64,000 nucleotides of DNA from a virus, in IMG/VR virus record IMGVR_UViG_3300027714_000001, positions 42,180 to 106,179 of that record; one strand, given 5' to 3'. A program made the position numbers and the translations under genes. The notes under the pieces were generated by a model, which saw nothing but the letters and a program-made list of their open reading frames with translations, did not search any database and was not told the origin of the DNA. Positions 10,068-46,609 of this stretch are shown here, one piece after another (the stretch's first letter is position 1; every line of letters begins with the position of its first letter).

Positions 10068-10072
10068 ACAGC

Positions 10073-23957: not shown

Positions 23958-23987
23958 AGCTTTAGAAATTAACAAAAGGAACAACCC

Positions 23988-33504: not shown

Positions 33505-33533
33505 TTGACAGTAGGATTTTCCTATGCTATAAT
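33505..33533 (+). promoter_or_regulatory. Promoter of small RNA
   Basis: -35 TTGACA (33505-33510), 17-bp spacer, -10 TATAAT (33528-33533). It lacks the cassette leader. Confidence 0.85.
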
Positions 33534-33539
33534 TACAAG

Positions 33540-33656
33540 GTAATCTTAAGAGAGACTAGAGAGAATCTTTAGAATCTCTACTACCTCCGCAAGATTTGAC
33601 AGAGCTTAAGGTCTAGGATATACACCTCCCGATACCATACGGGAAGGGGGTGTTTA
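33540..33656 (+). ncRNA. Candidate free-standing small RNA (about 115 nt)
   Basis: Bounded by a strong promoter and a terminator hairpin with ACACC/GGTGT and CCCG/CGGG arms followed by TTTAT. There is no start codon-led ORF inside. An imperfect AGAGAATC/GAATCTCT hairpin lies near its centre. Confidence 0.6.
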
Positions 33657-33917
33657 TACGCAGACTAACTTTAGCTTCTTCAAATCTAAAACAAACAACA
33701 AATCATTAACAGCCACAGCTATATCTACCAACAAATATAACAACTAATATCTACACAAGAGGGGACTTTTAACGCTATAGAACCCACTCGAACGGTATGA
33801 ACAACCAATGTCGTATAGAGCTTCGAGAACCCCTTCACCATAATACTAGCCTACACTAGTCCACACCAGACTACACCAATATCGTCCTAGACCAGAGTAG
33901 AACAACACAAGACTACA
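33657..33917. other. Geneless C- and A-rich stretch
   Basis: No gene on either strand. The + strand is poor in G and contains repeated short words such as ACTACACCA, CACACCAGAC and AGACTACACCAG between 33840 and 33915. It could be an unstructured or single-stranded region near replication signals; function unknown. Confidence 0.4.
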
Positions 33918-33958
33918 CCAGCCCGCTAATGTCCCCAAGAGAGACTGCGGGCTTTTTT
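33918..33958 (+). terminator. Terminator containing a GGACATTAGCG motif
   Basis: AGCCCGC pairs with GCGGGCT then TTTTTT. The loop begins with CGCTAATGTCC, one copy of the operator-like motif. Confidence 0.75.
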
Positions 33959-33990
33959 GTGTCTAAAATTTAATACCTCTAGTCAAAACT

Positions 33991-34104
33991 GTCATAATTG
34001 TTCGCTAATGTCCAAAAGCAGTCAGAATTGCAGTCATAATTGTTCGCTAATGTCCAAAAGCAGTCAGAATTGCAGTCATAATTGTTCGCTAATGTCCAAA
34101 AGCA
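33991..34104 (+). repeat. 42-bp direct repeat, 2.7 copies
   Basis: Identical units start at 33991, 34033 and 34075 (third is partial). Each carries TTCGCTAATGTCC, the reverse complement of the motif arrayed at 43957-44205. Confidence 0.9.
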
Positions 34105-34168
34105 GGGGCCGACCCCATCGGAATAGACAACCCCGTCAGCTCAGAACGGGCTAGGGCGCAGGAGAGCT

Positions 34169-34182
34169 TCTAACGGGACATT
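34169..34182 (+). promoter_or_regulatory. Isolated GGACATTAGCG motif
   Basis: GGGACATTAGCGGTC in the opposite orientation to the nearby 42-bp repeats. Confidence 0.5.
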
Positions 34183-34247
34183 AGCGGTCTGCCCCGAGTC
34201 TAACACCAGATTAGCCGTGGTTACACCGAAATAAACTTTAAATAGCG

Positions 34248-34276
34248 TTGACAAACCGCTTGCGCTCATGTATAAT
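34248..34276 (+). promoter_or_regulatory. Promoter, no clear gene downstream
   Basis: -35 TTGACA (34248-34253), 17-bp spacer, -10 TATAAT (34271-34276). Transcript would cover 34283-34400, which has no convincing ORF. Confidence 0.75.
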
Positions 34277-34403
34277 AGTATGATAAAGTGGGAAAGCTTA
34301 TGCCAAAATTCGCCGCAGCGGGGGGTAACATTATCACTACCCGCACCTAGTCTGCACCTACCACACAGTCCCGCCCCGTCCCGCAGAAAAACTAAAAAAT
34401 CAC

Positions 34404-34433
34404 TTGACAAGCAACGTCTCGGTAAGGTATACT
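34404..34433 (+). promoter_or_regulatory. Promoter reading into 33-bp repeats
   Basis: -35 TTGACA (34404-34409), 18-bp spacer, -10 TATACT (34428-34433). The transcript would start at the repeat array and end at the hairpin near 34640. Confidence 0.7.
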
Positions 34434-34457
34434 AGGCGCGAGTCTAATATAAGTACT

Positions 34458-34622
34458 AACGTAACATAAGTACTACCTCGCGGGCGCAACAACGTAACAT
34501 AAGTACTACCTCGCGGGCGCAACAACGTAACATAAGTACTACCTCGCGGGCGCAACAACGTAACATAAGTACTACCTCGCGGGCGCAACAACGTAACATA
34601 AGTACTACCTCGCAGGCGCAAA
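34458..34622. repeat. 33-bp tandem repeat, five copies
   Basis: Units start at 34458, 34491, 34524, 34557 and 34590. Each contains AACGTAACATAAGTACTACC with the palindrome AGTACT, then CTCGCGGGCGC; the last copy differs by one base. No spacers, so not CRISPR. Iteron- or operator-like. Confidence 0.9.
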
Positions 34623-34623
34623 C

Positions 34624-34684
34624 AGGGGTGAACCCCTTTTGACCAATCTAAACTGATCAAAATTTGACTGGACCGACCAGTCAA
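34624..34684. terminator. Terminator hairpin and adjacent palindrome
   Basis: AGGGGT/ACCCCT followed by TTTT (34624-34640) would end transcription of the repeat array. TTTGACTGG/CCAGTCAAA (34662-34684) is a second perfect hairpin. Confidence 0.6.
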
Positions 34685-34746
34685 ATAAAGCTTGACACGA
34701 GAACGCTGCGCGCAGCTTCCATGCCACTTTGTCAAGCTTTTTATTT
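34683..34746. terminator. Bidirectional terminator with GC-rich palindrome
   Basis: AAATAAAGCTTGAC (34683-34696) pairs with GTCAAGCTTTTTATTT (34731-34746) around the palindrome GCTGCGCGCAGC. Lies between convergent transcripts. Confidence 0.7.
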
Positions 34747-34754
34747 AATTTTAA

Positions 34755-34785
34755 GCAAAAAAAAGCCATGCCAATGTGGCACAGC
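34755..34785 (-). terminator. Minus-strand terminator of GcrA-like gene
   Basis: TGCCA/TGGCA hairpin followed, on the minus strand, by eight T residues. Confidence 0.75.
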
Positions 34786-34797
34786 TTTTGCTAGAGC

Positions 34798-35160
34798 TTA
34801 CAGCTCAGTAGCGACTGACAAAGCAGCGAGAGCTTCGTTCAAGCGGTCTAGGTCAGCTTTGCTGGCCTTCTCTAAAGAATCCAACTCGCCTTCCTTAAGG
34901 CTAAGAAAAATTTCAGCAGCCCGCACTAGCGAGATTTTGCGAGTGCCAGTTTTTGAGGTTACAGAAACTTTGACGTTAGGCTCATACAAACCTTCGCTTA
35001 CTAGTTTACCGCGAACCATAGGAATGGTCTTGCCCAAACCTTTTGCGATGCTAGACAAGGCATCGTTTTCGCCTTTGTATTCGCTTTTAAGAGTAGCGAT
35101 TTGCGCAGGAGTCCAAGATACAGATTTTACAGCAGATTTTACAGTTTTTGCATTAGACAT
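34798..35160 (-). CDS. GcrA-like HTH DNA-binding protein (paralogue 1)
   Basis: 120 aa. Residues about 14-60 match a SANT/GcrA-type HTH: WTPAQIATLKSEY, then IAKGLGKTIPMVRGKLVSEGLY. A C-terminal helical domain (EKASKADLDRLNEALAAL) may dimerise. Close paralogue of the protein at 39670-39993, especially at GKTIP.VRGKLV.EG. Three promoters precede it, two of them in a duplicated 71-bp block, implying high expression. A regulator is likely; its target is unknown. Confidence 0.7.
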   Translation of the reverse strand: MSNAKTVKSAVKSVSWTPAQIATLKSEYKGENDALSSIAKGLGKTIPMVRGKLVSEGLYEPNVKVSVTSKTGTRKISLVRAAEIFLSLKEGELDSLEKASKADLDRLNEALAALSVATEL

Positions 35161-35199
35161 TTACGTCTCCTTTAGTAATGCGGATTTGGGATTATTCCC

Positions 35200-35357
35200 G
35201 ATTTCTTAAGACTATTATAACAATTTTTAGTCTTTGAGTCGAGCTTTTATTTAATTATTTTTTAAACTAAATTTCCAGCTTGTCCTGATTTCTTAAGACT
35301 ATTATAACAATTTTTAGTCTTTGAGTCAAGCCTTTATTTAATTATTTTTTAAACTAA
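35200..35357 (-). repeat. Duplicated 71-bp promoter block
   Basis: 35200-35270 and 35287-35357 are near-identical. Each carries a minus-strand promoter: -10 TATAAT at 35214-35219 and 35301-35306, -35 TCGACT at 35237-35242 and TTGACT at 35324-35329, 17-bp spacers. Confidence 0.85.
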
Positions 35358-35387
35358 TTTCACAAACCTTCCCAACTCAAGACAAGT

Positions 35388-35416
35388 ATTATCTCACAAT
35401 GTTAGCTTGCTGTCCA
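35388..35416 (-). promoter_or_regulatory. Minus-block promoter
   Basis: Extended -10 TGAGATAAT (hexamer 35388-35393), 17-bp spacer, -35 TGGACA (35411-35416). Confidence 0.7.
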
Positions 35417-35470
35417 GCTTTATTTCAAAATAAGGTGAAAATAAAGTTGGCACGGGTCTTGCTAGGAAAA

Positions 35471-35575
35471 TAGGGGGTTGACTTTTAAAAACTCCTTTAA
35501 AATCAATGACTTACGCCGCTTCGCCGCGCGCGGCTGCGACCCCCTTTTGTCAAGTTTTATTTTTCAAATTTTAAA
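35471..35575. other. GC-rich palindromic island 1
   Basis: CGCCGCGCGCGGC palindrome within GGGGGTTGAC...GACCCCC and followed by TTTTGTCAAG and a T-run. Same core as islands near 36536, 38194, 39393, 40543 and 43317. Likely terminator for the operon at 35590-36442. Confidence 0.6.
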
Positions 35576-35589
35576 TAATTTGCTCATAC

Positions 35590-35835
35590 TTAATCCCTAA
35601 CACTAGCCATAAAATCAGAGCAATCATCCGCGTTAAAATTTCCATCTTCGTCTATGTCTTCCGATTCAATCCAGCCTGAATCAGTTTGTAAAAGACCATG
35701 TGATTCTGCAAAATCCTGCTCGTATTTTTCCATCGCAATGTCTTCCGCTTGGTTCTCGTCTTCCGCTTCGACTTCGTAATGTTCACTGTACCCACACCAG
35801 TCTACAGCGTAAATTTCTACTATGAATTTTTTCAT
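35590..35835 (-). CDS. Hypothetical acidic protein (81 aa)
   Basis: Strongly acidic, with one beta strand followed by a helix carrying EAEDENQAEDIAMEKY, a layout common in small phage proteins that bind host factors. Overlaps the upstream gene by 4 bp. Function unknown. Confidence 0.6.
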   Translation of the reverse strand: MKKFIVEIYAVDWCGYSEHYEVEAEDENQAEDIAMEKYEQDFAESHGLLQTDSGWIESEDIDEDGNFNADDCSDFMASVRD

Positions 35836-36137
35836 CGGTTTAGCTCCTTAAACATTAATTGTCTTATTGTTTCGCACGTAGCGTCACTTGCTAAAATAGA
35901 AATATTTTTAAAAGTCTTACCATCCCTTCGAAGTTCTGCGCCTAGCTCCTTAGCTATATACTGAGAATCAGCAAACTTTAAAACAGGCATTGCCATACAA
36001 TGCAACGAACGTTGACGAAAAAGGCCGCCCCCTTTTGTTAGCGTGATCTCTCCGTCTTCCCAAATTTCTTGTACCATCCCAACATTTTCCATAGTTGGGG
36101 CGGCTTTAAATGCTTCGATTATTTTTAAAATGCTCAT
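35832..36137 (-). CDS. Hypothetical protein (101 aa)
   Basis: Middle gene of a three-gene minus operon with 4-bp overlaps on both sides. Beta-rich middle with a GGG turn; helical ends. No family recognised. Confidence 0.6.
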   Translation of the reverse strand: MSILKIIEAFKAAPTMENVGMVQEIWEDGEITLTKGGGLFRQRSLHCMAMPVLKFADSQYIAKELGAELRRDGKTFKNISILASDATCETIRQLMFKELNR

Positions 36138-36442
36138 TTTTGTAGTTCCTTAAGTAGGTCTTCTAGTTCTGAAATTTGGTCTTGTCTGTCTCCAAGCTCT
36201 GATACTATATTATCATATTCTTCATGACAATGCTCTATTTCTTTGATAAGTTTTGCTATTTTTAAGGCTCTTGCAGGGTCAAAATTTAAGTCTACTGTTT
36301 TTACTCGTAAAACAGTAACAGATTTATACGTATCTGGAATCTGTTCTAGGGTTTCAAAGTATTCTACTACTTCAATACACCCACCAGAGTAGTTGTCTCC
36401 AACTACTTTAGAACTTACTACCTTATAAAGTTTACTCATCAT
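36134..36442 (-). CDS. Hypothetical protein with coiled coil (102 aa)
   Basis: Starts at ATGATG after GGAAGAAAA, 27 bp from the minus-block promoter at 36470. Beta-rich N-terminal half, coiled-coil C-terminus (GDRQDQISELEDLLKELQ). First gene of the operon. Function unknown. Confidence 0.6.
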   Translation of the reverse strand: MMSKLYKVVSSKVVGDNYSGGCIEVVEYFETLEQIPDTYKSVTVLRVKTVDLNFDPARALKIAKLIKEIEHCHEEYDNIVSELGDRQDQISELEDLLKELQK

Positions 36443-36469
36443 TTTTCTTCCTAGTTATTCAATACAAGT

Positions 36470-36498
36470 ATTATCTCATAAATAAGCTACGTTGTCTA
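36470..36498 (-). promoter_or_regulatory. Minus-block promoter
   Basis: Extended -10 TGAGATAAT (36470-36475 hexamer), 17-bp spacer, -35 TAGACA (36493-36498). Followed by the shared 5' region ACTTGTATTGAATAACTAGG. Confidence 0.75.
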
Positions 36499-36535
36499 AT
36501 ACCGTTTTAGTATATGCTTATGCATTTTTAGTCTT

Positions 36536-36600
36536 GACAGGCGTTCCGCCGCGCGCGGCTGCGACCCCCTTTTGTCAAGTTTTATTTTTCAAATATTTTT
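36536..36600. other. GC-rich palindromic island 2
   Basis: TTGACAGGCG, CCGCGCGCGG core and TTGTCAAG ending with a T-run on the minus-leading side. Near copy of island 1. Confidence 0.6.
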
Positions 36601-36732
36601 TCATCCCCTTTTAAGTCCTTTTTTTTGTTTTTTAAAAATAATTACTGCTTGCTTTCTATAAAATTCCTTAGTCTCTGTGCAATTATTTTCATTATACCCT
36701 TCATCTACTAAGTTTTTAAAATTTCTTAACAT
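36601..36732 (-). CDS. Hypothetical small basic protein (43 aa)
   Basis: ATG overlaps the stop of the 52-aa gene. Lys-rich C-terminus. Ends at the edge of a GC-rich island. No family recognised. Confidence 0.5.
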   Translation of the reverse strand: MLRNFKNLVDEGYNENNCTETKEFYRKQAVIIFKKQKKGLKRG

Positions 36733-36884
36733 GCTTTTAATATTCTCCAATAGCTAAAATTAAATTCTTTTTTGTCGGTATATTTGTTTGACTTTTTGCA
36801 AAATTTCTTTGCTTCTTTTTCTGTCTCACAATAGCCGACAATATCCACAATTCCAAACTTATCTGTAATTTCTACAATATACAT
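36726..36884 (-). CDS. Hypothetical small protein (52 aa)
   Basis: ATG 36884 just after the membrane-protein gene. Beta strand then a Lys-rich helix (CETEKEAKKFCKKSNKY); similar layout to the small protein at 39183-39299. No family recognised. Confidence 0.5.
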   Translation of the reverse strand: MYIVEITDKFGIVDIVGYCETEKEAKKFCKKSNKYTDKKEFNFSYWRILKAC

Positions 36885-36890
36885 ATTATA

Positions 36891-37157
36891 TCACCATATA
36901 AAAAATAAAACAACTAAATTCGATGTAATGCCTATTATGCTAGAAACGATATGAAGTTTGCATTTTCTAGTAATTGCGTCAACTAAGTAACAACATAAAG
37001 CAGTTATTAACAAAACTATACTAGCTATAGGCATAGAAACACCTGTTTTTATTGAAACTATTACATTAGGAATATTCATCATTTGCATTAGGCCGAAGCC
37101 TACCCAAGGAATATAAGCAAGCATTGCTTGCTTATATTTATTAAATCTATTTTCCAT
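36891..37157 (-). CDS. Membrane protein (88 aa)
   Basis: Three hydrophobic helices (about residues 14-32, 38-58, 68-88). One-base overlap with the exonuclease gene upstream. Function unknown. Confidence 0.6.
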   Translation of the reverse strand: MENRFNKYKQAMLAYIPWVGFGLMQMMNIPNVIVSIKTGVSMPIASIVLLITALCCYLVDAITRKCKLHIVSSIIGITSNLVVLFFIW

Positions 37158-37912
37158 TATAAAAACTTTACCTCGTTCAAAGTTACATTTTTACCTAGAC
37201 GAATTTTGTCTTTGATTTTTTTTAATTTTTCTTCGTTTAAAATAATTTCTTCTTTGTCTTGGATAAGTCTCCAAGGGTGAGAAATAATACCGTAGTTAAT
37301 TTTCTTACCTAGACCAAGCAATCGGACTAAAAGCTCTTTTTCAATTAGTGCATCATCTAAAGCGGTATGCGACTCTTGAAATTCCCAATCCCCAATGCCG
37401 TATTTATAAGCAACTTCGGCATTAGTTTTATAGTTACCCGCAGGTGAAACATGACCCATTAACTTACACCACTTTTTAAAAGTACGTTGCTGTAGTAATG
37501 TCTCGCAAGATACACGCCACAAATCAAGTTGCTCTCTTTTGCCTATAGCCATAAAGCCACCATATTTACGACCTGTATTACTAATGACCCTAGAATCAAA
37601 AGCTAAATTATAAGCGCAAATAGTAGTGACACCATGATTTTTCATTAGCTTGTTTACGTCATGGCAAATTACAGCCCAGCTTTTTACGTCCATACGGTTG
37701 CATCGGATATTTGGCTTGTAAAAGCTATCGACTTTTTTAAAGTAAAAGGCTTTTTTCATCATCTGGACATTTTCAAAAACTTCCTTTATAATGGAATCAT
37801 ATCTTGCAAGCTCTTTGCCTTCTTTGTCACAAATTACCATACCAAAATCAAAAACTTCACCCGTCAAAGTTGCGGTTTCTGTGTCGATTACTGCGTATAT
37901 TCTTTTAGTCAT
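37157..37912 (-). CDS. DEDDh 3'-5' exonuclease
   Basis: 251 aa. Exo I VIDTET (Asp 10, Glu 12), Exo II AYNLAFDSR (Asp 106), Exo III ESHTALDDA (His 182, Asp 187), the DEDDh set of DnaQ/RNase T-type enzymes. Likely degrades DNA or RNA 3' ends during replication, repair or host nucleic-acid turnover. Two promoters (37942, 38030) precede it. Confidence 0.85.
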   Translation of the reverse strand: MTKRIYAVIDTETATLTGEVFDFGMVICDKEGKELARYDSIIKEVFENVQMMKKAFYFKKVDSFYKPNIRCNRMDVKSWAVICHDVNKLMKNHGVTTICAYNLAFDSRVISNTGRKYGGFMAIGKREQLDLWRVSCETLLQQRTFKKWCKLMGHVSPAGNYKTNAEVAYKYGIGDWEFQESHTALDDALIEKELLVRLLGLGKKINYGIISHPWRLIQDKEEIILNEEKLKKIKDKIRLGKNVTLNEVKFL

Positions 37913-37941
37913 TTTTTAATTCTCTATCTAAGTAAGTGCTA

Positions 37942-37970
37942 ATTATAGCTTTTTTGGTGGTTTGTGTCAA
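37942..37970 (-). promoter_or_regulatory. Minus-strand promoter of exonuclease gene
   Basis: -10 TATAAT (37942-37947), 17-bp spacer, -35 TTGACA (37965-37970). Confidence 0.8.
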
Positions 37971-38029
37971 GTGTTTATTTAAGCTATTTTATAAATAAAT
38001 TCTCTTTGCTCTCCCCATCCAACACAAGT

Positions 38030-38058
38030 ATTATCTCATACCCTTTCAACATTGTCAA
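38030..38058 (-). promoter_or_regulatory. Minus-block promoter
   Basis: Extended -10 TGAGATAAT (38030-38035), 17-bp spacer, -35 TTGACA (38053-38058). Confidence 0.75.
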
Positions 38059-38121
38059 CCCTTTATTTTATTTTGTTTTAAATTTAATTTAAAACTAACT
38101 CTGTACCGATTCAACACAAGT

Positions 38122-38150
38122 ATTATCTCATAAATACGTTGGGTTGTCAA
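38122..38150 (-). promoter_or_regulatory. Minus-block promoter
   Basis: Extended -10 TGAGATAAT (38122-38127), 17-bp spacer, -35 TTGACA (38145-38150). The -35 is in the arm of a long inverted repeat. Confidence 0.75.
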
Positions 38151-38200
38151 AGACCGTTTTGGTATAGCTTTGCTTGTTTTTATACCAAAACGGTCTTGAC
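38146..38200. repeat. Long inverted repeat upstream of promoter
   Basis: AGACCGTTTTGGTATA pairs with TATACCAAAACGGTCT around a short loop, extended outward by GTCAA/TTGAC. Located between the promoter at 38122 and GC-rich island 3. Confidence 0.8.
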
Positions 38201-38240
38201 AGGCGTTCCGCCGCGCGCGGCTCCTGCGGCCCTGTCAAGT
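38194..38240. other. GC-rich palindromic island 3
   Basis: CTTGACAG...CTGTCAAG stem around CCGCCGCGCGCGGC. Serves as a likely terminator for the minus genes to its right; the stop codon of the 54-aa gene lies in its arm. Confidence 0.65.
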
Positions 38241-38399
38241 TTTTATTAAAAATAAAATTCTTTCTAGTGTGTCTATTTCGCCCGCTATGTAAGCTAATCT
38301 GTACGCTTTTTGTCGGGTGTTTTCTCTCTCATTAGTTACTAGTTTATGCGTGTTTCTTGCGATTTTTAGCTCTTTTTCTATTATTTGTTTTGGCAACAT
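38235..38399 (-). CDS. Hypothetical small protein (54 aa)
   Basis: ATG 38399 inside the end of the 85-aa gene, with GGAGAAAAA upstream. Basic helical protein. Its TGA lies within the terminator arm. No family recognised. Confidence 0.5.
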   Translation of the reverse strand: MLPKQIIEKELKIARNTHKLVTNERENTRQKAYRLAYIAGEIDTLERILFLIKT

Positions 38400-38601
38400 C
38401 TTTTTTCTCCTTTTTGTGAAATTTTAAATAGCATTCGTATACGCTTAAATATTCTTCGGCTTCCTGATTTACATAGTTTTTACCTTCAAGATAGACGCAA
38501 ACGGATGCCTCTTGCTTGTATGTTTCCCAATAATTGGCAACGGCTTCAAGGCTAGTAAATACACCATGAACTTCTAGATACTCTAGTGCAACATAAATCA
38601 T
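38344..38601 (-). CDS. Hypothetical protein (85 aa)
   Basis: Two bases after the HAD gene, so co-transcribed. Acidic/aromatic body with a strongly basic tail (NNRKRAKNRKKHA) suited to nucleic-acid binding. Overlaps the next small gene. Function unknown. Confidence 0.6.
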   Translation of the reverse strand: MIYVALEYLEVHGVFTSLEAVANYWETYKQEASVCVYLEGKNYVNQEAEEYLSVYECYLKFHKKEKKDVAKTNNRKRAKNRKKHA

Positions 38602-38603
38602 TA

Positions 38604-39116
38604 TTAATGACCCTCAAAAGGTACGTTTATAGATTGCATACCGATTTTAATAACGGCTTTGCAGTTTGCTAAATTATCATCAATCAAAACCATTTTTTCC
38701 AATTGGCGAAAATCAAAACGGCTAATTAAGTGTGTAGTTTTTAAGTGGTAATCTCTGCGAGAATCATTTTCACCACATCGCGCCATAATTGATTTAGGCT
38801 TTACGTTATTATTAGCTAACCAAGCTTTTGTGTTATCACACATTACGCGAGCTGTACATATATGAAAATCAACTCCCGCTTCCTGTAGTAAGTGAATTGC
38901 CTTAATTAATGGTAAAGCTTTATCTTTTGATACATGTTCGGCGGTTGACATTTCGCGGTACTTGTCAAGGTTTAATGAACCGTCTTTGTTGCAAATCTGT
39001 CTATGACTTGCATCGGCAAAAACTCCGTCCATATCAAAAACAGGAACTTTTTTCGCCATGATTAGGGTAGCGGCTAATTGAGTTGCTGACTTTTTGTTAT
39101 TTTGTAGTGTAAACAT
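38604..39116 (-). CDS. HAD phosphatase resembling the 3'-phosphatase domain of PNKP
   Basis: 170 aa (ATG 39059 is an alternative start, giving MAKKVPVFDMD). HAD motif I FDMDGVFADASHR (Asp 28, Asp 30), motif II ICTAR, motif III MARCGENDSRRDYHLK and motif IV LIDDNLANC. The TAR...TKAWL and MAR...D.RRD...K pattern is that of T4 polynucleotide kinase-phosphatase, without the kinase half. It may remove 3' or cyclic phosphates from RNA or DNA, or be a nucleotidase. Confidence 0.7.
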   Translation of the reverse strand: MFTLQNNKKSATQLAATLIMAKKVPVFDMDGVFADASHRQICNKDGSLNLDKYREMSTAEHVSKDKALPLIKAIHLLQEAGVDFHICTARVMCDNTKAWLANNNVKPKSIMARCGENDSRRDYHLKTTHLISRFDFRQLEKMVLIDDNLANCKAVIKIGMQSINVPFEGH

Positions 39117-39149
39117 ATTTTTTATTCTCTTTATTAATTCAGTGTAAGT

Positions 39150-39178
39150 ATTATATCGCGTTTGGCGGGTGGAGTCAA
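39150..39178 (-). promoter_or_regulatory. Minus-strand promoter of HAD operon
   Basis: -10 TATAAT (39150-39155), 17-bp spacer, -35 TTGACT (39173-39178). Confidence 0.75.
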
Positions 39179-39182
39179 CCTT

Positions 39183-39299
39183 TTATTCAATAAAATTATC
39201 AATAAAATCATCGGCATCTTCTATGCTTTTAAAGTTAGCTATGACTTCGTCTTTTTCGTTTATAACTTCGTAGATTCCGTTGTTCAAAAATTTATACAT
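39183..39299 (-). CDS. Hypothetical small acidic protein (38 aa)
   Basis: ATG 39299 after GGAAAAC; own promoter at 39330. Beta hairpin followed by an acidic helix. No family recognised. Confidence 0.5.
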   Translation of the reverse strand: MYKFLNNGIYEVINEKDEVIANFKSIEDADDFIDNFIE

Positions 39300-39329
39300 T
39301 TAAAGTTTTCCTAGTTATTCAATACAAGT

Positions 39330-39358
39330 ATTATCTCATAAAAGTATCGTGTTGTCCA
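39330..39358 (-). promoter_or_regulatory. Minus-block promoter
   Basis: Extended -10 TGAGATAAT (39330-39335), 17-bp spacer, -35 TGGACA (39353-39358). TTTTAGTAT/ATACTAAAA hairpin lies just upstream. Confidence 0.7.
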
Positions 39359-39392
39359 CCGCTATTTTAGTATATGGCATACTAAAAAGTTA

Positions 39393-39445
39393 TTTGACAA
39401 AAACCGGAAAGCCGCGCGCAGCGTTGCCGCCCCTGTCAACCTTTA
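39393..39445. other. GC-rich island 4
   Basis: TTTGACA and TGTCAA flank AGCCGCGCGCAGCG, followed by a T-rich run on the minus-leading side. Confidence 0.55.
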
Positions 39446-39447
39446 TT

Positions 39448-39616
39448 TTAAATATATTCCCAGATATATTTAGACTCAAAATATTCTTCGGTTTCCACAC
39501 AATTTTTAGTATTGCAATAGTGGTCTGCATCTTGCCATTTTTCAAAAGTCAAGAACTCATTTTCTCGCTCAATTACTTCGTTGCGGCTTAAGGTTAATAA
39601 ACTTACCCGTACCATA
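39448..39616 (-). pseudogene. Small gene split by a one-base frameshift
   Basis: ATG 39616 with TTTGGAGAAT upstream reads only 15 codons. Skipping one T in the TTTT run at about 39599-39603 opens a 55-codon frame rich in acidic and aromatic residues ending at 39448. Either a recent indel, a sequencing error or a programmed +1 shift. Confidence 0.4.
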
Positions 39617-39635
39617 TTAAATTCTCCAAAAAAAA

Positions 39636-39663
39636 AAAAAAGCCCGAGGCGAACGCCCCGAGC
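39636..39663 (-). terminator. Minus-strand terminator of second GcrA-like gene
   Basis: GCTCGGGGCG/CGCCTCGGGC hairpin then a run of about 14 T on the minus strand. Confidence 0.9.
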
Positions 39664-39669
39664 ATATTA

Positions 39670-39993
39670 TTAAGCTTCTACCAGAGCCTGCACAGCATCT
39701 AGGATGGTTTCAAGATCAGATTTTGATGCCTTCTCAAAGCTGGTAACTTCTTCAACACCTAGCAAGTCAGAGATTGCTTGCACTAGGGTGATTTTACGAA
39801 CCGCCCTGCTAACGCTAGGGGATGCGCTTTTTGCTTTAGCAACATAAACACCTTCGGCAACAAGCTTGCCACGTACTTGCGGGATAGTCTTGCCCATGTC
39901 TTTAGCGATAGTTGCAATTGCAACGCCTTCCTGATACTTAGCAGTCATAGCGGCAACAGATTCGGTAGTATAAGCGGTAGATTTAGTAGTCAT
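39670..39993 (-). CDS. GcrA-like HTH DNA-binding protein (paralogue 2)
   Basis: 107 aa. HTH region YTTESVAAMTAKYQEGVAI followed by IAKDMGKTIPQVRGKLVAEGVY; C-terminal EKASKSDLETILDAVQAL helix. Same build as the protein at 34798-35160. Own promoter at 40029 and own strong terminator, so expressed as a single gene. Probable transcription or nucleoid regulator; target unknown. Confidence 0.7.
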   Translation of the reverse strand: MTTKSTAYTTESVAAMTAKYQEGVAIATIAKDMGKTIPQVRGKLVAEGVYVAKAKSASPSVSRAVRKITLVQAISDLLGVEEVTSFEKASKSDLETILDAVQALVEA

Positions 39994-40028
39994 ATTATTT
40001 TTACTCTCTTTAGTTATTTAGAACGTTT

Positions 40029-40057
40029 ATTATAATTCAATTCGGTTGTTAAGTCAA
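40029..40057 (-). promoter_or_regulatory. Minus-strand promoter of GcrA-like gene 2
   Basis: -10 TATAAT (40029-40034), 17-bp spacer, -35 TTGACT (40052-40057). Confidence 0.8.
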
Positions 40058-40119
40058 TCTTTATTTTAATTCTTTTTTGTAATCTTTTTAATTCGTTTCC
40101 CTGATTTCTTAAAGCTATT

Positions 40120-40449
40120 TTACCATGTTTTATTGGTAGCTGTCAAGTGCATTTCGTAACTTTCTTTAATTTCTTTTCTAGCGGCTTGCTTAGAAAAGAA
40201 AGCTCGTAAACAAACTATTGCAGAAAAGCTAGGAATAACCACAATACAAGATAATAATTGAAAAACAGTCATTTCTAATCCTTGTTTTAAGATATACATT
40301 ATATCACCATAAAGTCCTGTAGTCGAGTCTTTTAATAGATTAAAAATGCTTTTATGATAAATCGCCCTTGGCGAGTTTCCCTCTGGCGTAAAATTTGGGT
40401 TTAACAAAGCTTCGGCATATGCCTTATCTGTAAATTCTTTAAAAGTCAT
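40120..40449 (-). CDS. Membrane-associated protein (109 aa)
   Basis: ATG 40449, 30 bp after a minus-block promoter. Soluble N-terminal half and one hydrophobic helix at about residues 60-85 followed by a basic tail. No family recognised. Confidence 0.6.
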   Translation of the reverse strand: MTFKEFTDKAYAEALLNPNFTPEGNSPRAIYHKSIFNLLKDSTTGLYGDIMYILKQGLEMTVFQLLSCIVVIPSFSAIVCLRAFFSKQAARKEIKESYEMHLTATNKTW

Positions 40450-40478
40450 GGGGTTCTTCCTAGTTATTCAATACAAGT

Positions 40479-40507
40479 ATTATCTCATAAAAGTATTGTG
40501 TGGTCTA
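40479..40507 (-). promoter_or_regulatory. Minus-block promoter
   Basis: Extended -10 TGAGATAAT (40479-40484), 17-bp spacer, -35 TAGACC (40502-40507). Confidence 0.7.
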
Positions 40508-40542
40508 ATAACATTTTCGCATAAGCTTAGATCAAAATGATC

Positions 40543-40567
40543 TTGACAGCGGCGGCGAGCCGCGCGC
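40543..40567. other. GC-rich island 5
   Basis: TTGACAGCGGCGGCGAGCCGCGCGC, only the left half of the islands seen elsewhere; the right half is replaced by the 13-bp repeat array. Confidence 0.5.
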
Positions 40568-40632
40568 ACCTAATATTTGCACCTAATATTTGCACCTAAT
40601 ATTTGCACCTAATATTTGCACCTAATATTTGC
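40568..40632. repeat. 13-bp tandem repeat, five copies
   Basis: ACCTAATATTTGC repeated exactly five times. Contains the palindrome AATATT. Lies immediately 3' of the minus gene at 40635-40898. Confidence 0.95.
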
Positions 40633-40634
40633 AC

Positions 40635-40898
40635 CTATAAGTTTTGTACATAAGTAGTCCCAAACTCAAGAGGGATCTGCCCCGTCTTTTTGTTGATGAA
40701 ATTTTGAACGATTGGCTGAAAATCGAAATTCTTAGCAATGCTCTTATATACCCCCACATCGGTCAAATCTGCAAGCACGTTAGCCGCTACAAGCTCATTA
40801 AGTATTTTTAGACCCTTAGTTACACTATCAACCTTAAACGTCTTAGAAGGCATCCTAGAGCTTGATTCTGAAAAAACCCGAATTGCTATTGTTGACAT
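40635..40898 (-). CDS. Hypothetical protein (87 aa)
   Basis: ATG 40898 with AAAGGGTATAAC upstream. Basic N-terminal beta strand, helical middle. Ends at the edge of the 13-bp repeats. No family recognised. Confidence 0.6.
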   Translation of the reverse strand: MSTIAIRVFSESSSRMPSKTFKVDSVTKGLKILNELVAANVLADLTDVGVYKSIAKNFDFQPIVQNFINKKTGQIPLEFGTTYVQNL

Positions 40899-40948
40899 AT
40901 GTTATACCCTTTAGTTATATTAAATTCATGCCCATTGGCACAATAAAT

Positions 40949-40975
40949 CCTAAACGAGAATGGTTCTCGTTTAGG
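40949..40975 (-). terminator. Hairpin after minus gene 40990-41460
   Basis: Perfect 12-bp stem CCTAAACGAGAA/TTCTCGTTTAGG with a 3-base loop. Weak T-run on the minus side. Confidence 0.65.
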
Positions 40976-40989
40976 AGTGACCCACCTTT

Positions 40990-41460
40990 TTAGATACTTG
41001 TCAATAATTCATTTATCAATTTATTGATTCTATCAATGTCAAGGTCAATATTATTTAATTCAAATTTTTCTTGCTTTTTATTATATATCACTTGTAACGC
41101 TTTGTGTACCGTTTTTTCGTATTTGCCATTTATTTCTTCAAGTTTCTTCGTAAGTTCTTTACGAGCTTTTGAGCAGCTTTCTAGCGCGTATTTATCTGCC
41201 AGATTATTAAATTCAACATCATCCGTTATAACAAAAACAGTCACTAATGAGTCACTATCAACCAAAACGTTATAACGTCTTAGTGCTTGATATGGGTGAA
41301 AAGATTTACCCACTTTGCAAGCCCATTTTATGTTATTTTTGCCCAAAAAACTACCCACCGGCACTGAATATATGGTGTTAGCTAATTTGCCTATTTTGTG
41401 ATCAGATTGGTGATTTTTTAGGCTTTTTTGGATTGCTCGTATTTTCATCGTTTTTCTCAT
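40990..41460 (-). CDS. Hypothetical basic protein next to the origin (156 aa)
   Basis: Basic N-terminal 60 residues and a long coiled-coil middle (LTKKLEEINGKYEKTVHKAL), acidic C-terminus. It is the gene nearest to the DnaA-box cluster and reads away from it. An initiator-accessory role is possible by position only. Weak promoter TTGCAA (41506), 18 bp, TTATAT. Confidence 0.6.
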   Translation of the reverse strand: MRKTMKIRAIQKSLKNHQSDHKIGKLANTIYSVPVGSFLGKNNIKWACKVGKSFHPYQALRRYNVLVDSDSLVTVFVITDDVEFNNLADKYALESCSKARKELTKKLEEINGKYEKTVHKALQVIYNKKQEKFELNNIDLDIDRINKLINELLTSI

Positions 41461-41515
41461 TTAATTGATTAGGTATTACCTATATAATGCAACCTACGTG
41501 CCAAGTTGCAAAATA

Positions 41516-41544
41516 GGTAAGTCGTTGATTTATAAGGGTTTTTA
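41516..41544 (+). repeat. 29-bp direct repeat near origin, copy 1
   Basis: GGTAAGTCGTTGATTTATAA followed by GGGTTTTTA; identical to copy 2 at 41629-41657, 113 bp apart. Confidence 0.9.
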
Positions 41545-41628
41545 TATTCTAGCTAATTGAATAGTTGGCATGATGACATTTTATGCACCTGAATAGTGCA
41601 ATGATTCCTGATTATAGTGCACCACTTT

Positions 41629-41657
41629 GGTAAGTCGTTGATTTATAAGGGTTTTTA
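41629..41657 (+). repeat. 29-bp direct repeat near origin, copy 2
   Basis: Second identical copy of the repeat at 41516. Confidence 0.9.
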
Positions 41658-41930
41658 ACCTTTTTGAGATGCACCAAAAACTGACATACCAAAAACACAA
41701 AAAACGTGTTAAGTCTAATAACAAATTAATCAAAAAATAAACAAAAAAGTATTGGACATTTGAAAATCATAGCAAAAAACTTATCCACAGGTTATCCACA
41801 CACTTATACATCTGGGGATAAAAAGCGGCTTTTTAAAATGTCAACCTTTTATTTTAGCTCTCTCAGTGAGTTATACAGAACTTACCCACAGGGTTATCCA
41901 CAGGCTGTTGGGTTGTGGGTAACCTGTTAG

Positions 41931-42105
41931 CAACAAAAAACCTCCAATATAAACGCCCTGTACGGTCGCTGGTGGCATTATCTCTTAGCAGTCTTATTGA
42001 TACAAAGGGTAGGGCTAAACGCGCACACTAATCTAAATGATTACCATTCGCATTTGGCGGCGCGGGCGCGATGCGGGCTGTAGAGCATCGCTACAGCCCG
42101 CGCCC
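41931..42105. other. Spacer with strong GC-rich hairpin
   Basis: CGGGCTGTA/TACAGCCCG with flanking GGGC/GCCC (about 42062-42105) forms a stable hairpin between the origin and the small gene at 42106. No gene is seen in the rest. Confidence 0.5.
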
Positions 42106-42279
42106 TTAAAGGGCGGTAGACTGCCCCAACAGCTTATACGTTATTTTCTCAACCCTATCTTCATGTATACCATATTGATCTAAATAGCTCTTTTGAGCGT
42201 CTACAAGTGTGTTGCCTTCAGCCGTTGCAACGTGCATTCTGCCACCAATTAAATTTGTTGTGAATTGATAAACTTTCAT
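42106..42279 (-). CDS. Hypothetical protein (57 aa)
   Basis: ATG 42279 with AAAGGTAGC upstream. Beta strand, then a helix, ending at a TAA inside the palindrome GCCCTTTAAGGGC. No family recognised. Confidence 0.55.
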   Translation of the reverse strand: MKVYQFTTNLIGGRMHVATAEGNTLVDAQKSYLDQYGIHEDRVEKITYKLLGQSTAL

Positions 42280-42303
42280 ATTTTGCTACCTTTTAAAATT
42301 TTC

Positions 42304-42328
42304 TGGTTAAACCGAATTGTTTAACCAG
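42304..42328 (-). terminator. Hairpin between minus genes
   Basis: CTGGTTAAAC/GTTTAACCAG stem followed by AAAATTTT on the minus strand; probably attenuates transcription from 42356-42553. Confidence 0.6.
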
Positions 42329-42355
42329 ACCTATATCCTACAGCGCTCGGGTACC

Positions 42356-42553
42356 TTAGTCAAGTAAATGTTTAAAGTTATTTCCAGATATGTCTGCTTT
42401 AGTTCTTAGGTAAACATTTTTATTTGTGGTACTTTTACCTGCCTGTATATCTTTGCGGATATTTGACCAGTCAAATGCTACCACGTCAACGAAATATTCC
42501 GCCAATTCGATTTTTCCAGATTCTAGTATTAGGTAGTAATTAGTTGCTTTCAT
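42356..42553 (-). CDS. Hypothetical protein (65 aa)
   Basis: ATG 42553, after the shared 5' region CATCGAATAAATAAAG of the promoter at 42584. Basic, mixed structure. No family recognised. Confidence 0.55.
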   Translation of the reverse strand: MKATNYYLILESGKIELAEYFVDVVAFDWSNIRKDIQAGKSTTNKNVYLRTKADISGNNFKHLLD

Positions 42554-42583
42554 TTTCTTTACTCTTTATTTATTCGATGAGGT

Positions 42584-42612
42584 ATTATCTCAGGTTCTAA
42601 TCTATTGTGCAA
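42584..42612 (-). promoter_or_regulatory. Minus-block promoter
   Basis: Extended -10 TGAGATAAT (42584-42589), 17-bp spacer, -35 TTGCAC (42607-42612), inside the end of the upstream membrane-protein gene. Confidence 0.7.
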
Positions 42613-42736
42613 GTACAAATGTCAAAAAAGCGGATAAAAAACATAGTGTACTAAAAAAGTTTTGTTCGCCTTGTTTGTCCGAAGTAACACACATTATGCC
42701 AAAAACTATAGTAAATAATAAAGCAGTTATAAACAT
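42602..42736 (-). CDS. Small membrane protein (44 aa)
   Basis: ATG 42736. Two hydrophobic stretches (residues 1-17 and 29-44) around a polar loop. Last codons CTTGCACAATAG contain the -35 of the next promoter. Function unknown. Confidence 0.5.
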   Translation of the reverse strand: MFITALLFTIVFGIMCVTSDKQGEQNFFSTLCFLSAFLTFVLAQ

Positions 42737-42740
42737 AATT

Positions 42741-42938
42741 TTAACCTTTACAAAATGCGGCAGATGCCTTAAATGTCATGTCATAATTTACAACCATATC
42801 CATCTCGCAAACCGCTCTCTGGTGAACTTCGATTCCGGATTTTCCCAATCCTAGTGAAGTACCAAAAACGGCAGCTATATACATAACAGATAAAAGTACT
42901 ATGACCTGAGCGATTGACTTCATTATTAGTGTTTTCAT
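42741..42938 (-). CDS. Exported or membrane-anchored protein (65 aa)
   Basis: Basic start and hydrophobic helix (residues 8-30), then a polar domain with two Cys that could form a disulphide outside the membrane. Four bases before the 44-aa gene. No family recognised. Confidence 0.55.
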   Translation of the reverse strand: MKTLIMKSIAQVIVLLSVMYIAAVFGTSLGLGKSGIEVHQRAVCEMDMVVNYDMTFKASAAFCKG

Positions 42939-42968
42939 TTTCTTTACTCTTTATTTATTCGATGAGGT

Positions 42969-42997
42969 ATTATTGCATTCTAATGCTAGATTGTAAA
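42969..42997 (-). promoter_or_regulatory. Minus-block promoter
   Basis: -10 AATAAT (42969-42974), 17-bp spacer, -35 TTTACA (42992-42997). Confidence 0.6.
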
Positions 42998-43219
42998 GGG
43001 TATTTTTGAATTTTCTTCCCAATTATTATTAAGTTTTTTATTTTGGTTAAATCTATCAGAATCAAAATTAGCCGCAATGGTAATGTACTGGTGTTGGTGA
43101 AACGCGGTAGCAAAAAGACCCTTATCAAAACAGTCACGCAAAAACTCAAGACTTTCAAGTCTTGACAAATTACGGGTAGTGGTATTTTCGGTTTTTACTG
43201 CAAATTCGTTGTCATTCAT
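42986..43219 (-). CDS. Hypothetical protein (77 aa)
   Basis: First gene of the minus block. Polar, Asn-rich C-terminus. Its 3' end carries the promoter for the next gene. No family recognised. Confidence 0.6.
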   Translation of the reverse strand: MNDNEFAVKTENTTTRNLSRLESLEFLRDCFDKGLFATAFHQHQYITIAANFDSDRFNQNKKLNNNWEENSKIPFTI

Positions 43220-43249
43220 TTTCTTTACTCTTTATTTATTCGATGAGGT

Positions 43250-43279
43250 ATTATTGCACGAAAAGGGTACCTTTGTGAA
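43250..43279 (-). promoter_or_regulatory. Minus-block promoter (first)
   Basis: -10 AATAAT (43250-43255), 18-bp spacer, -35 TTCACA (43274-43279). Confidence 0.5.
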
Positions 43280-43316
43280 ATACCGAATTGGAATAAGCAC
43301 CTGCTTTTTAGTTATA

Positions 43317-43380
43317 AGCCGCGCGCAATGGGGGCTGCAGGGGTGCTCTGTAGGGCGGGCGCAATGGGGCCTGCAGAGCA
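43317..43380. repeat. GC-rich island 6 with short direct repeat
   Basis: AGCCGCGCGC core, then GCAATGGGGGCTGCAG (43325-43340) and GCAATGGGGCCTGCAG (43361-43376) as near-identical copies. Confidence 0.7.
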
Positions 43381-43402
43381 TGAAATTAAATGAAATAAAA
43401 GG

Positions 43403-43430
43403 TTGCTATTATCTGTCAATACTGTATTAT
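43403..43430 (+). promoter_or_regulatory. Plus-strand promoter
   Basis: -35 TTGCTA (43403-43408), 16-bp spacer, -10 TATTAT (43425-43430). Confidence 0.5.
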
Positions 43431-43464
43431 TACCTTACTGAAACAAAACGAACCGAGAAGAAAA

Positions 43465-43815
43465 ATGACCACATTCACTATCACAAGATTAACAGAGACA
43501 CAAGCACGAATCATGCCACAAGGCAATCATTTATATTTATGTGAGACCCTGACAAAACTTGGCATGAATTTTGATGGCACCAAGTTCGGAAAGTGTAAAG
43601 CGAAAAACGGCCTATGGGAGCGTCTACGCTCCCATAGTACCAACTGCCCATTTGGTCTAATCATAGTCCTGACGTTCACTACAGAGGCTGCTATGTGTGC
43701 CGCTGAGAGCGCCTGTAAGACTTCTCTACCAACCCTTGCTTGGAATAGCTCAGAACGAGAATATACTTCATTAACCCCTGAGAAGGCTTTACAAGCTCTA
43801 TTACGTAACATCTAA
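43465..43815 (+). CDS. Hypothetical protein (116 aa)
   Basis: ATG 43465 after GAGAAGAAAA. Single plus-strand gene between the minus block and the late operon, ending in a terminator. It has five Cys residues and a basic centre. No family recognised. Its isolated position and own promoter would suit a regulator. Confidence 0.55.
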   Translation: MTTFTITRLTETQARIMPQGNHLYLCETLTKLGMNFDGTKFGKCKAKNGLWERLRSHSTNCPFGLIIVLTFTTEAAMCAAESACKTSLPTLAWNSSEREYTSLTPEKALQALLRNI

Positions 43816-43822
43816 TAGGGGC

Positions 43823-43863
43823 GGGGGGGGTTAGGAGACTGGTCTGACCAGTCCGACCCCCCA
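43823..43863 (+). terminator. GC-rich hairpin after 116-aa gene
   Basis: GGGGGGT...ACCCCCC enclosing the palindrome ACTGGTCTGACCAGT. No T-run, so possibly a processing or pause site. Confidence 0.5.
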
Positions 43864-43941
43864 GACCCATTTCCAAACGCGATATAGGGTATTTTCAAAA
43901 AAGTGGAGAGGCGCGACAAATATCGGCTGAGGAGACCCTCA

Positions 43942-44205
43942 CTACGGTTCTCTGCGGGACATTAGCGAACGGGGTATACTATTTCTACTACGGTTCTCTG
44001 CGGGACATTAGCGAACGGGGTATACTATTTCTACTACGGTTCTCTGCGGGACATTAGCGAACGGGGTATACTATTTCTACTACGGTTCTTTGCGGGACAT
44101 TAGCGAACGGGGTATACTATTTCTACTACGGTTCTCTGTGGAACATTAGCGAACGGGGTATACTATTTCTACTTTGCAGTAGCCTGAGCCAGGACATTAG
44201 CGAAC
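43942..44205 (+). repeat. 46-bp tandem repeat array with GGACATTAGCGAAC motif
   Basis: Motif copies at 43957, 44003, 44049, 44095, 44141 (one substitution) and 44192. The first five lie in near-identical 46-bp units that also carry CTACGGTTCT and GGGGTATACTAT. Located 40 bp before the late promoter. No spacers of CRISPR type. Confidence 0.9.
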
Positions 44206-44242: not shown

Positions 44243-44271
44243 TTGACAGGATATTTCTGGAGATGTATAAT
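44243..44271 (+). promoter_or_regulatory. Late-operon promoter
   Basis: -35 TTGACA (44243-44248), 17-bp spacer, -10 TATAAT (44266-44271), just downstream of the motif array; drives terminase and head genes. Confidence 0.85.
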
Positions 44272-44292
44272 GCAAGTATAGAGGAGAAATAC

Positions 44293-44757
44293 ATGGACAA
44301 CGAAATAACCGTGATAAGCCCCGAGGGGTTGGAGATAGCACACTGTTATCTGCAAAATAATAGTGACTCGGTTAAGACTGCCGAATTACTTAATATAGAC
44401 ATTACAGAAGTCGACAGATACTTGTGCAAGCGGGAAGTACGAGGATACATTGATAGACTATTTAACGAATCGGGCTTCCGAAATCGTGATAAGATGGCCA
44501 ATGTTTGGGACGCAATCCTAGCAGCCAAGTTGGAAGAAATGGACGATACAGGTATGGGCTCGTCAAAAGATATTGTAGAGATAATGGAGAAGATTCATAA
44601 ATTTAACCTAGACCAAATGAATATGCAACTAAAAATACTAGAACTGGAGAAATCCAAGGAGCCCGCAGTGGTGGTCAATACGCAGAACAACTACGGTGGG
44701 GCAAATTATAACAGTTTAATGGAAAAGATATTAGCAGGTAAAAATGGAGATAAGTAG
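44293..44757 (+). CDS. Terminase small subunit
   Basis: 154 aa from ATG 44293 with GAGGAG upstream. N-terminal HTH-like region (SVKTAELLNIDITEVDRYL) for pac/cos recognition and a helical oligomerisation part (IVEIMEKIHKFNLDQMNMQL). Overlaps the large-subunit gene by 14 bp. Family call rests on helix pattern and position. Confidence 0.75.
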   Translation: MDNEITVISPEGLEIAHCYLQNNSDSVKTAELLNIDITEVDRYLCKREVRGYIDRLFNESGFRNRDKMANVWDAILAAKLEEMDDTGMGSSKDIVEIMEKIHKFNLDQMNMQLKILELEKSKEPAVVVNTQNNYGGANYNSLMEKILAGKNGDK

Positions 44758-46036
44758 ACCGTACTTAAATTGTGAAAACATTATAGACTTCCCCGTAGCG
44801 GAGCGTTTTCTAAAGCTACCCGTTGAGAACTTCCTAGAACTAAAAGGCATAGAACCTATAGCGCCCCAGATTGGATTGATAAACGCTATAAACGACCCTA
44901 TACATAGATTTGTAGTCGCCTGTCTATCTCGTAGAACAGGTAAGACATTCATATCTAACACTCTAGCGTTCTTGAAAGCTATGGAACCAAAGTCAAAAGT
45001 ACTGATAGTATCGCCTAACTTCTCATTAACAAACATATCTTGGAATGAGCAGATAACTATGCTTAAAGATCACAACATTGAGATAGAGTCTAAGAACAAG
45101 GCCTTGCGTGAGATACACCTAACAAATGGTTCTATGATAAAGTTTGGGTCATACAATAATCCAGATTCATTAGTAGGACATTCGTACGACTTGATACTAG
45201 TGGACGAAGCAGCCCTAGAGAACAAAGGGGCAGATGTATTCAACGTACAGCTACAGCCTACTCTAGACAAAGCAAACTCTAAATGTATCTTCATAAGTAC
45301 ACCACGAGGTTTGAATTACTTTTATGACTTTTACATGCGAGGGTTTAGCGATGACTACCCTTCTTGGATAAGCATACATTCTACCTACCGTGACAACCCC
45401 AGAAGTGTTTCGAGTGTTATTGAAGAAGCTCGTAAGAGTATGAGTAAGGCTGAATTTAAGCAAGAGTACGAAGCAGACTTTGCAACGTTTGAAGGACAGA
45501 TATACGAAGGGTTTGACGAGGATAAGCATGTACGCGACCTTAGTGACATGGAGTTTCCTGAGCACAGATTTGAAGCTATAATGGGTATTGACCCCGGCTA
45601 CAAGGACGATACAGGGGCTGTAATATTCCAATACGATATGGATGAAGACAAATTTTACTTAATGTGGGATTACCAAGAAAAAGAACGAAATACAGAGCAG
45701 CACGCACTAGAATTTTATAACCGCATGGAAGGCTGGAATGTAGACATAGTGTTCTGCGACAGCGCGGCAGCCCAATTCAGGCAAGACTTAGCTTCCTTAT
45801 ACGACATTCCTAGCAACAAAGCTAACAAGAGTGTACTTGACGGACTAGGGTATGTACAAGCCTTGATAGACAACGACAAGCTAATAGTAGATATTAACTG
45901 TACTCATGTCATCATGATGCTCCTCAACTATCGTTGGGACCCTAACCCAATGCTTGCAAAACCCAAACCGAAGCACGATCAGTTCTCGCACGTTGCGGAT
46001 GCCCTGAGATATGCACTATACAGCTATACTCGTTAG
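44744..46036 (+). CDS. terL: Terminase large subunit
   Basis: 430 aa. ATPase: Walker A SRRTGKT (62-68), Walker B ILVDEA (151-156), coupling motif STPRG (185-189). RNase H-like nuclease: GIDPGYKD (281-), CDSA (338-341) and HVADALRYAL near the C-terminus. Packages DNA into the prohead and cuts it. Standard length. Confidence 0.95.
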   Translation: MEISRPYLNCENIIDFPVAERFLKLPVENFLELKGIEPIAPQIGLINAINDPIHRFVVACLSRRTGKTFISNTLAFLKAMEPKSKVLIVSPNFSLTNISWNEQITMLKDHNIEIESKNKALREIHLTNGSMIKFGSYNNPDSLVGHSYDLILVDEAALENKGADVFNVQLQPTLDKANSKCIFISTPRGLNYFYDFYMRGFSDDYPSWISIHSTYRDNPRSVSSVIEEARKSMSKAEFKQEYEADFATFEGQIYEGFDEDKHVRDLSDMEFPEHRFEAIMGIDPGYKDDTGAVIFQYDMDEDKFYLMWDYQEKERNTEQHALEFYNRMEGWNVDIVFCDSAAAQFRQDLASLYDIPSNKANKSVLDGLGYVQALIDNDKLIVDINCTHVIMMLLNYRWDPNPMLAKPKPKHDQFSHVADALRYALYSYTR

Positions 46037-46147: not shown

Positions 46148-46609
46148 ATGGCCGCTAATACAAACAAAAGAGTAGCGACAAAGCACATTCGAGACGGAAT
46201 AAAGTCTAACTACAAAAAGAAGTGTGAATGTGAGATTTGTGGAACTGACTCTGAACTAGAGATACATCATTACACAACCGTGTCGTTACTACTGAAAAAA
46301 TATTGCATGGAAAACAAGATACTCATAGTTACAGACGAACAAGTTTTAGCTATGAGAGAAGATTTCTATACAGCACACTGGGACGAACTAGTTGAACAAA
46401 CAGTCACCCTTTGCGCTACGCACCACAAATTACTGCATAAGATATACGGGCGAGAGCCTACACTAGCTTCTGCTGAAAAACAGGTTACTTGGGTGTTAAA
46501 ATTGCATGGACGAACTCACGGCAAGGATGCTGTACCAACCCGATCAGATACTAGATTTGGAAGTCTCCTCGGAGAAACCTCAAACGATAGGTTTTCTAGA
46601 TTAAAATAA
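46148..46609 (+). CDS. HNH endonuclease of the packaging module
   Basis: 153 aa. Zinc Cys pairs CECEIC (26-31), EIHH (His 40, 41) and TLCATHHKLLH (Cys 89, His 92/93/97): a complete HNH/ββα-metal site. In siphophages an HNH protein next to terminase stimulates TerL cleavage, so a packaging role is likely. Distinct from the two tRNA-region HNH proteins. Confidence 0.8.
   Translation: MAANTNKRVATKHIRDGIKSNYKKKCECEICGTDSELEIHHYTTVSLLLKKYCMENKILIVTDEQVLAMREDFYTAHWDELVEQTVTLCATHHKLLHKIYGREPTLASAEKQVTWVLKLHGRTHGKDAVPTRSDTRFGSLLGETSNDRFSRLK

Follow-up and report, generated by a model that had tools for sequence, protein, structure and literature searches.

The 64,000-nucleotide stretch analyzed here (the window; positions 42,180 to 106,179 of IMG/VR virus record IMGVR_UViG_3300027714_000001) contains a block of minus-strand genes bracketed by two arrays of an 11-base word, GGACATTAGCG. 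Comparison of its sequence with those of known phages strongly supported an anatomy in which this block corresponds to a T5-type terminal repeat (TR), collapsed to a single copy, with one array at each of its two borders. The arrays would be protein-binding sites, most likely used by the small terminase subunit, TerS, in packaging; this is the reading we favor, at slightly less than an even chance.

In the window and the whole 106,179-bp record, 11 exact copies of GGACATTAGCG were found, against a mean of 0 in dinucleotide shuffles. Five are in a left cluster at 33.92-34.19 kb, on the minus strand at 33924, 34003, 34045 and 34087 and on the plus strand at 34176, and five in a right cluster at 43.96-44.20 kb, all on the plus strand (43957, 44003, 44049, 44095 and 44192). 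Besides these and a stray copy at 19725(+), which lies within a coding frame and remote from both arrays, the record contained no further exact copy. An earlier note on this DNA, made from the letters alone, was therefore right that two arrays bracket the block; of the six copies it had counted on the right, five are exact, and the sixth, at 44141(+), is GAACATTAGCG, with one mismatch. Tandem Repeats Finder returned a 42-bp unit present 2.7 times on the left and a 46-bp unit present 5.1 times on the right, the same unit lengths as those first proposed. Both arrays share a 14-bp core, GGACATTAGCGAAC, which is inverted between them, in agreement with the claim that they have opposite orientation. 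Since the units are 97-100% identical, they are recent tandem duplicates, and each array counts once; the word thus has five independent contexts, one for each of the 42-bp and 46-bp arrays and one for each of the copies at 33924, 34176 and 44192. On the left, a 17-bp inverted repeat links the outermost copies (the 33924 copy and an arm at 34175-34191). The word itself is not palindromic and forms no hairpin. A role as a hairpin or RNA motif was rejected, as the motif units folded no better than shuffles, the copy at the terminator excepted, and an Rfam search gave nothing above threshold. That copy had been placed within the terminator loop; the overlap with the terminator was confirmed, but it extends to the stem as well. 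The 14-mer is held by about 90 viral contigs, which by a rough estimate does not exceed chance for a collection of that size, and it was discarded as a widespread site; another three contigs (L112-L114), each with two copies close together, looked unrelated and have the word in other tandem contexts. The features of the two borders are the following:

33924-33934, minus strand: motif copy overlapping the stem-loop of the plus-strand terminator that ends the early block
33991-34105, minus strand: left array of 42-bp units, with the motif copies at 34003, 34045 and 34087
34155-34162, plus strand: GGCGCAGG, match to the T5 nick consensus R/GCGCRGG, with the strand and the place relative to the array of the T5 7.9% nick
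34176-34186, plus strand: isolated inverted motif copy
34248-34276, plus strand: promoter with 12/12 matches to the sigma70 consensus, 61 bp downstream of the isolated copy
43818-43866, plus strand: predicted terminus element, composed of a G-rich tract, GGTTAGGAGAC (43829-43839) and 27 nt, with the predicted TR end at 43866/43867
43941-44173, plus strand: right array of 46-bp units, with five motif copies, one of them mismatched, 75 bp outside the predicted terminus
44192-44202, plus strand: last motif copy, in a context unlike the 46-bp units
44243-44271, plus strand: 12/12 sigma70-consensus promoter preceding terS, 40 bp past the last motif copy; the earlier note had the right array end just before the late promoter
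44263-44757, plus strand: terS, terminase small subunit (PHROG 3802), likely starting at ATG 44293
44744-46036, plus strand: terL, terminase large subunit, with T5-like Vibrio phages as best named relatives
46148-46609, plus strand: HNH-like protein (PHROG 3497, PHROG 8048), at the place of the T5 nicking endonuclease gene beside terL

Judged from its gene families, the record is that of a T5-like phage (Demerecviridae), because of its TerL relatives, its TerS, its late genes, and the A2 and dmp families of the block. The best named TerL relatives, T5-like Vibrio phages nearly all of 112-121 kb, are 53-56% identical; PHROG 3802 is the family of T5 TerS; and the late genes follow the T5-type order of terS, terL, HNH-like gene, portal, head and tail genes. 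Within the block, four genes were assigned:

34798-35160, minus strand: putative DNA-binding protein of the A2 family (PHROG 1725)
37157-37912, minus strand: protein similar to a DNA polymerase exonuclease subunit, in the pre-early block
38604-39116, minus strand: HAD phosphatase (PHROG 415, the family holding T5 dmp; E 8e-19)
39670-39993, minus strand: second A2-family protein (PHROG 1725)

The two proteins that match PHROG 1725, the T5 A2 family, did so with E values of 1.7e-5 and 3.3e-6. They had been taken for GcrA-like regulators, and this identity was rejected: one gave a Pfam GcrA match of E 0.087 and 13.6 bits, below the cut-off of 26.9, and the other gave no match, so that both fit the A2 family better. 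The structure model was of low confidence and had no significant PDB match. A1 (PHROG 1745) was not found in the record by a search that detected it in 5/5 control T5-likes. The block, at 34141-43219, thus has no detectable A1, yet contains an exonuclease-like gene and two A2 paralogues; the relative L004 has two exonuclease-like and two A2-like genes.

In T5, the TR spans 1-10139 and 111614-121752 and is filled by pre-early genes of the A2/dmp type, with terS and terL beyond it, and a corresponding layout is present in VspSw_1, Bennett, Slocum, Stubb and My1. On these grounds, the minus block is best read as a T5-type TR, i.e., the first-step-transfer DNA, of roughly 10 kb, and it would be displayed once because assembly collapses the repeat. 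The size, the genes and the conserved terminus element of the block all fit such a TR.

The terminus element provided a predicted position for one end. When sequences were read from the repeat outwards, a G-rich tract, GGTWANNAGAC and 27 nt (28 in T5) preceded the recorded left end of T5, Slocum, Stubb, My1, Stitch and SJ1; the ends of Slocum and Stubb come from PhageTerm, and the record starts of some genomes may follow convention. In the window, GGTTAGGAGAC is separated by 27 nt from a CCAGAC/CCATTT junction, and this ruler predicts the end at 43866/43867. The window thus has the spacing of a left terminus, with an element that was itself defined in this analysis. The same element was found in the same place in three metagenomic relatives (L004, L005 and L006), and the records of it include, besides the window (43829-43866), L103, L109, L117, L126, L128 and L107. 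Inspection had yielded the ruler, and My1 and Stitch, fetched afterwards, served as a check and both fitted; phiR2-01 did not, its record starting elsewhere and the GGTWANNAGAC element not being at its first base. The spacing is 27 nt in DT57C too, although that record may have been opened on the model of T5. With this end, the right array is predicted to start 75 bp outside the TR, between the terminus and terS. The TR end that PhageTerm gave for Stubb falls on a nick-site match and could be an artefact. In addition, the first base of contig L007 falls precisely on the nick-type position of GGCGCAG close to the left terminus (L004 8268-8275); this may be chance or the trace of a real strand break in the source DNA.

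At the other border, between the TR and the early genes, GGCGCAGG at 34155 has its neighboring motif copies at distances of 13 and 57 bp, and its strand corresponds to that in T5. RGCGCRGG is the published T5 nick consensus (PMC3517423), and T5 repeat D lies within a region described as the injection-stop signal (PMC13250531). Because this nick-type site adjoins the motif copies on the corresponding strand, the left array is, by its place, the positional counterpart of T5 repeat D. An array of GTGCAAATCCGAC straddles the annotated TR end at the TR/early border in T5, Stitch, Slocum and My1, Bennett has GTGCAAATCCGAC at the same place, and the array adjoins an RGCGCRGG site in T5, Stitch, Slocum and Bennett. 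T5 therefore resembles the window in its direct repeats beside a nick site at the TR/early border, in its A2 and dmp family pre-early genes, and in having terS and terL beyond the other border. It differs in that its word was not found at the T5 TR/late border, whereas in the window one other word marks both borders, inverted, and A1 was not detected. TTGACAA lies 16-22 nt before the annotated TR end in T5, Stitch, My1 and Slocum; a weak match in the window, TTGACTAG at 33979-33986(-), resembles it but is not significant, and the placing of the TR/early border by sequence was abandoned. Two other elements were observed near this border. At 33505-33670, where the early block ends, a 12/12 sigma70 promoter precedes a non-coding stretch rich in hairpins, and Bennett, VspSw_1 and T5 seem to be laid out similarly there; inside the border, at 34458-34621, there are five near-identical 33-bp tandem repeats (AACGTAACATAAGTACTACCTCGCGGGCGCAAC).

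Tandem arrays starting 66-141 nt outside the left terminus were found in 5/9 lineages (the window, L004/L005, L006, Stubb and My1), as compared with 7.7% of background tiles, and none was found there in T5, Slocum, VspSw_1/SJ1 or Bennett. The position is therefore shared by Stubb, My1 and L004-L006, but the repeat units differ between lineages and are unrelated in sequence, and a significant version of the motif occurs only in L004/L005, where it is kept as a single GGACATAGCAG (random segments were equally good in 0/400 and 2/400 cases). The search of relatives that the earlier note had suggested was thus positive for this pair, and an arrayed word common to both borders was not found in T5, Slocum, Stubb, Bennett or VspSw_1. 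A different sequence, the palindrome ATGAGA-N-TCTCAT, is present at both borders in Stitch, My1 and VspSw_1, which suggests that several lineages have a protein working at both borders; none was found in the window. Fur-box-like palindromes of this form were recorded at one or both TR borders of several T5-likes, in L101 (11953-12285 and 19129), L126, L133, L128, L132 and L103 (9578-9613). Close relatives are few and none spans the TR/early border; searches with one gene close to that border, one A2-like protein, the exonuclease and the dmp-like protein returned only contig L004 or nothing.

Short repeats bound by TerS are known from pac and cosB sites, such as the R sites of lambda and the pac hexamers of P1. 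The arrays of the window are a candidate, from sequence alone, for a site of this kind, as a short non-palindromic word is arrayed near a genome end and terS; they differ from it in being two, 10 kb apart and in opposite orientation, which would follow if the ends enclose a long TR. We propose that GGACATTAGCG could be the recognition word of a sequence-specific phage protein acting at both borders, that TerS, the likeliest candidate, would bind the arrays as it does a pac or cosB site, and that TerL would then cut concatemers at each border. In tailed phages the end injected first is the one packaged last, and T5 injects its left end first; packaging should therefore run from the TR/early border to the left terminus, i.e., the TR/late border. 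TerS is preferred because the terminase must act at both borders, because packaging should run between them in this direction, and because the right array adjoins terS, outside the first-step-transfer DNA. In agreement, the inverted, outward-pointing arrays fit ends that are processed from opposite sides. Among the functions proposed at the outset, i.e., a packaging signal, a late operator, and a partition or replication site, packaging fits best because the arrays are at the two TR borders, with the right one between the predicted terminus and terS.

Several points weigh against this proposal. The TR and the protein that would bind the word are both things we infer, and the record carries one copy of the block. 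The TR/early end can be placed no more closely than somewhere from about 33.7 kb up to the nick site (about 33.7-34.16 kb). A T5-type left terminus can do without a tandem array outside it, as T5 and Slocum show. The two occurrences of GGATATAGCA in L006 are not a significant match. The identity of TerS and that of A2 are uninformative, as neither tracks the motif differences between phages. Of the 42- and 46-bp spacings, at least one is not a whole number of helical turns. Moreover, the promoters beside both arrays (34248 and 44243) leave room for a regulatory role.

Such a role is the strongest alternative, although an unlikely one: the word would be a transcription operator, and the phage regulator binding it, either a D5-like protein or an A2 paralogue, would set the timing of terS and late expression via the strong adjoining promoters. 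The last plus-strand copies are followed at 61 and 40 bp by the two 12/12 promoters, each 46-bp unit contains TATACT, and the A2-like proteins resemble DNA-binding proteins. However, 4/5 left copies are on the minus strand, with no strong minus-strand promoter nearby, in a convergent intergenic region where one of them overlaps the terminator; TATACT is absent from the arrays of the relatives L004 and L006, and it would be by chance that the arrays sit at the TR borders. Somewhat less likely still is a function in second-step transfer, in which A2-family or host factors at the left array halt or restart DNA entry, a role that has been proposed for the repeat-rich injection-stop signal of T5, and the right array is secondary. 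The place of the left array is that of the injection-stop signal, repeat D and the major nick in T5, and the block encodes two A2 paralogues; nonetheless, the right array is outside the predicted TR and hence not on first-step-transfer DNA, and A1, the partner of A2, was not found in this record, as against all five control phages. This role would explain the left array, not the right one. It is improbable that the arrays are for the most part neutral, being tandem repeats of a non-coding border that evolves fast, with the word spread by duplication: recent, nearly identical units and the unrelated units of neighboring lineages at the same place would agree with this, but the five contexts of the core are unrelated, and L004/L005 conserve it. 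The least probable explanation is a replication, partition or host-protein site, as the direct repeats are iteron-like but the word is neither palindromic nor hairpin-forming, no Rep, ParB-like or partition gene was found among the block proteins scanned with Pfam and PHROGs (small open reading frames left out), and the origin that the arrays had been said to flank was unsupported, the GC-skew turn at 33-34 kb following gene direction.

Two observations were made elsewhere in the window. At 48051-50030, a single 659-aa protein has matches in two families, head maturation protease and major head protein, which suggests a fusion, and at 22741-25763 a ribose-phosphate pyrophosphokinase gene adjoins one for nicotinamide phosphoribosyltransferase, an NAD-salvage pair.

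We know of no defined DNA signal for the T5-type cutting of concatemers that gives an identical repeat of ~10 kb at both ends. The comparison offers targets, i.e., an element that six T5-likes have at a constant 27-28 nt from their recorded left ends, plus the border arrays. We tentatively suggest, as a possibility well short of probable, that in this T5-like branch one inverted, arrayed word at both TR borders is the terminase address that defines both ends, and that, with GGTWANNAGAC and its 27-nt ruler, it may amount to a sequence rule for the cutting of T5-type long TRs. The comparison also makes the ends of metagenomic T5-like phages predictable from sequence, and the packaging, injection-stop and regulatory readings separable by simple binding and deletion tests.

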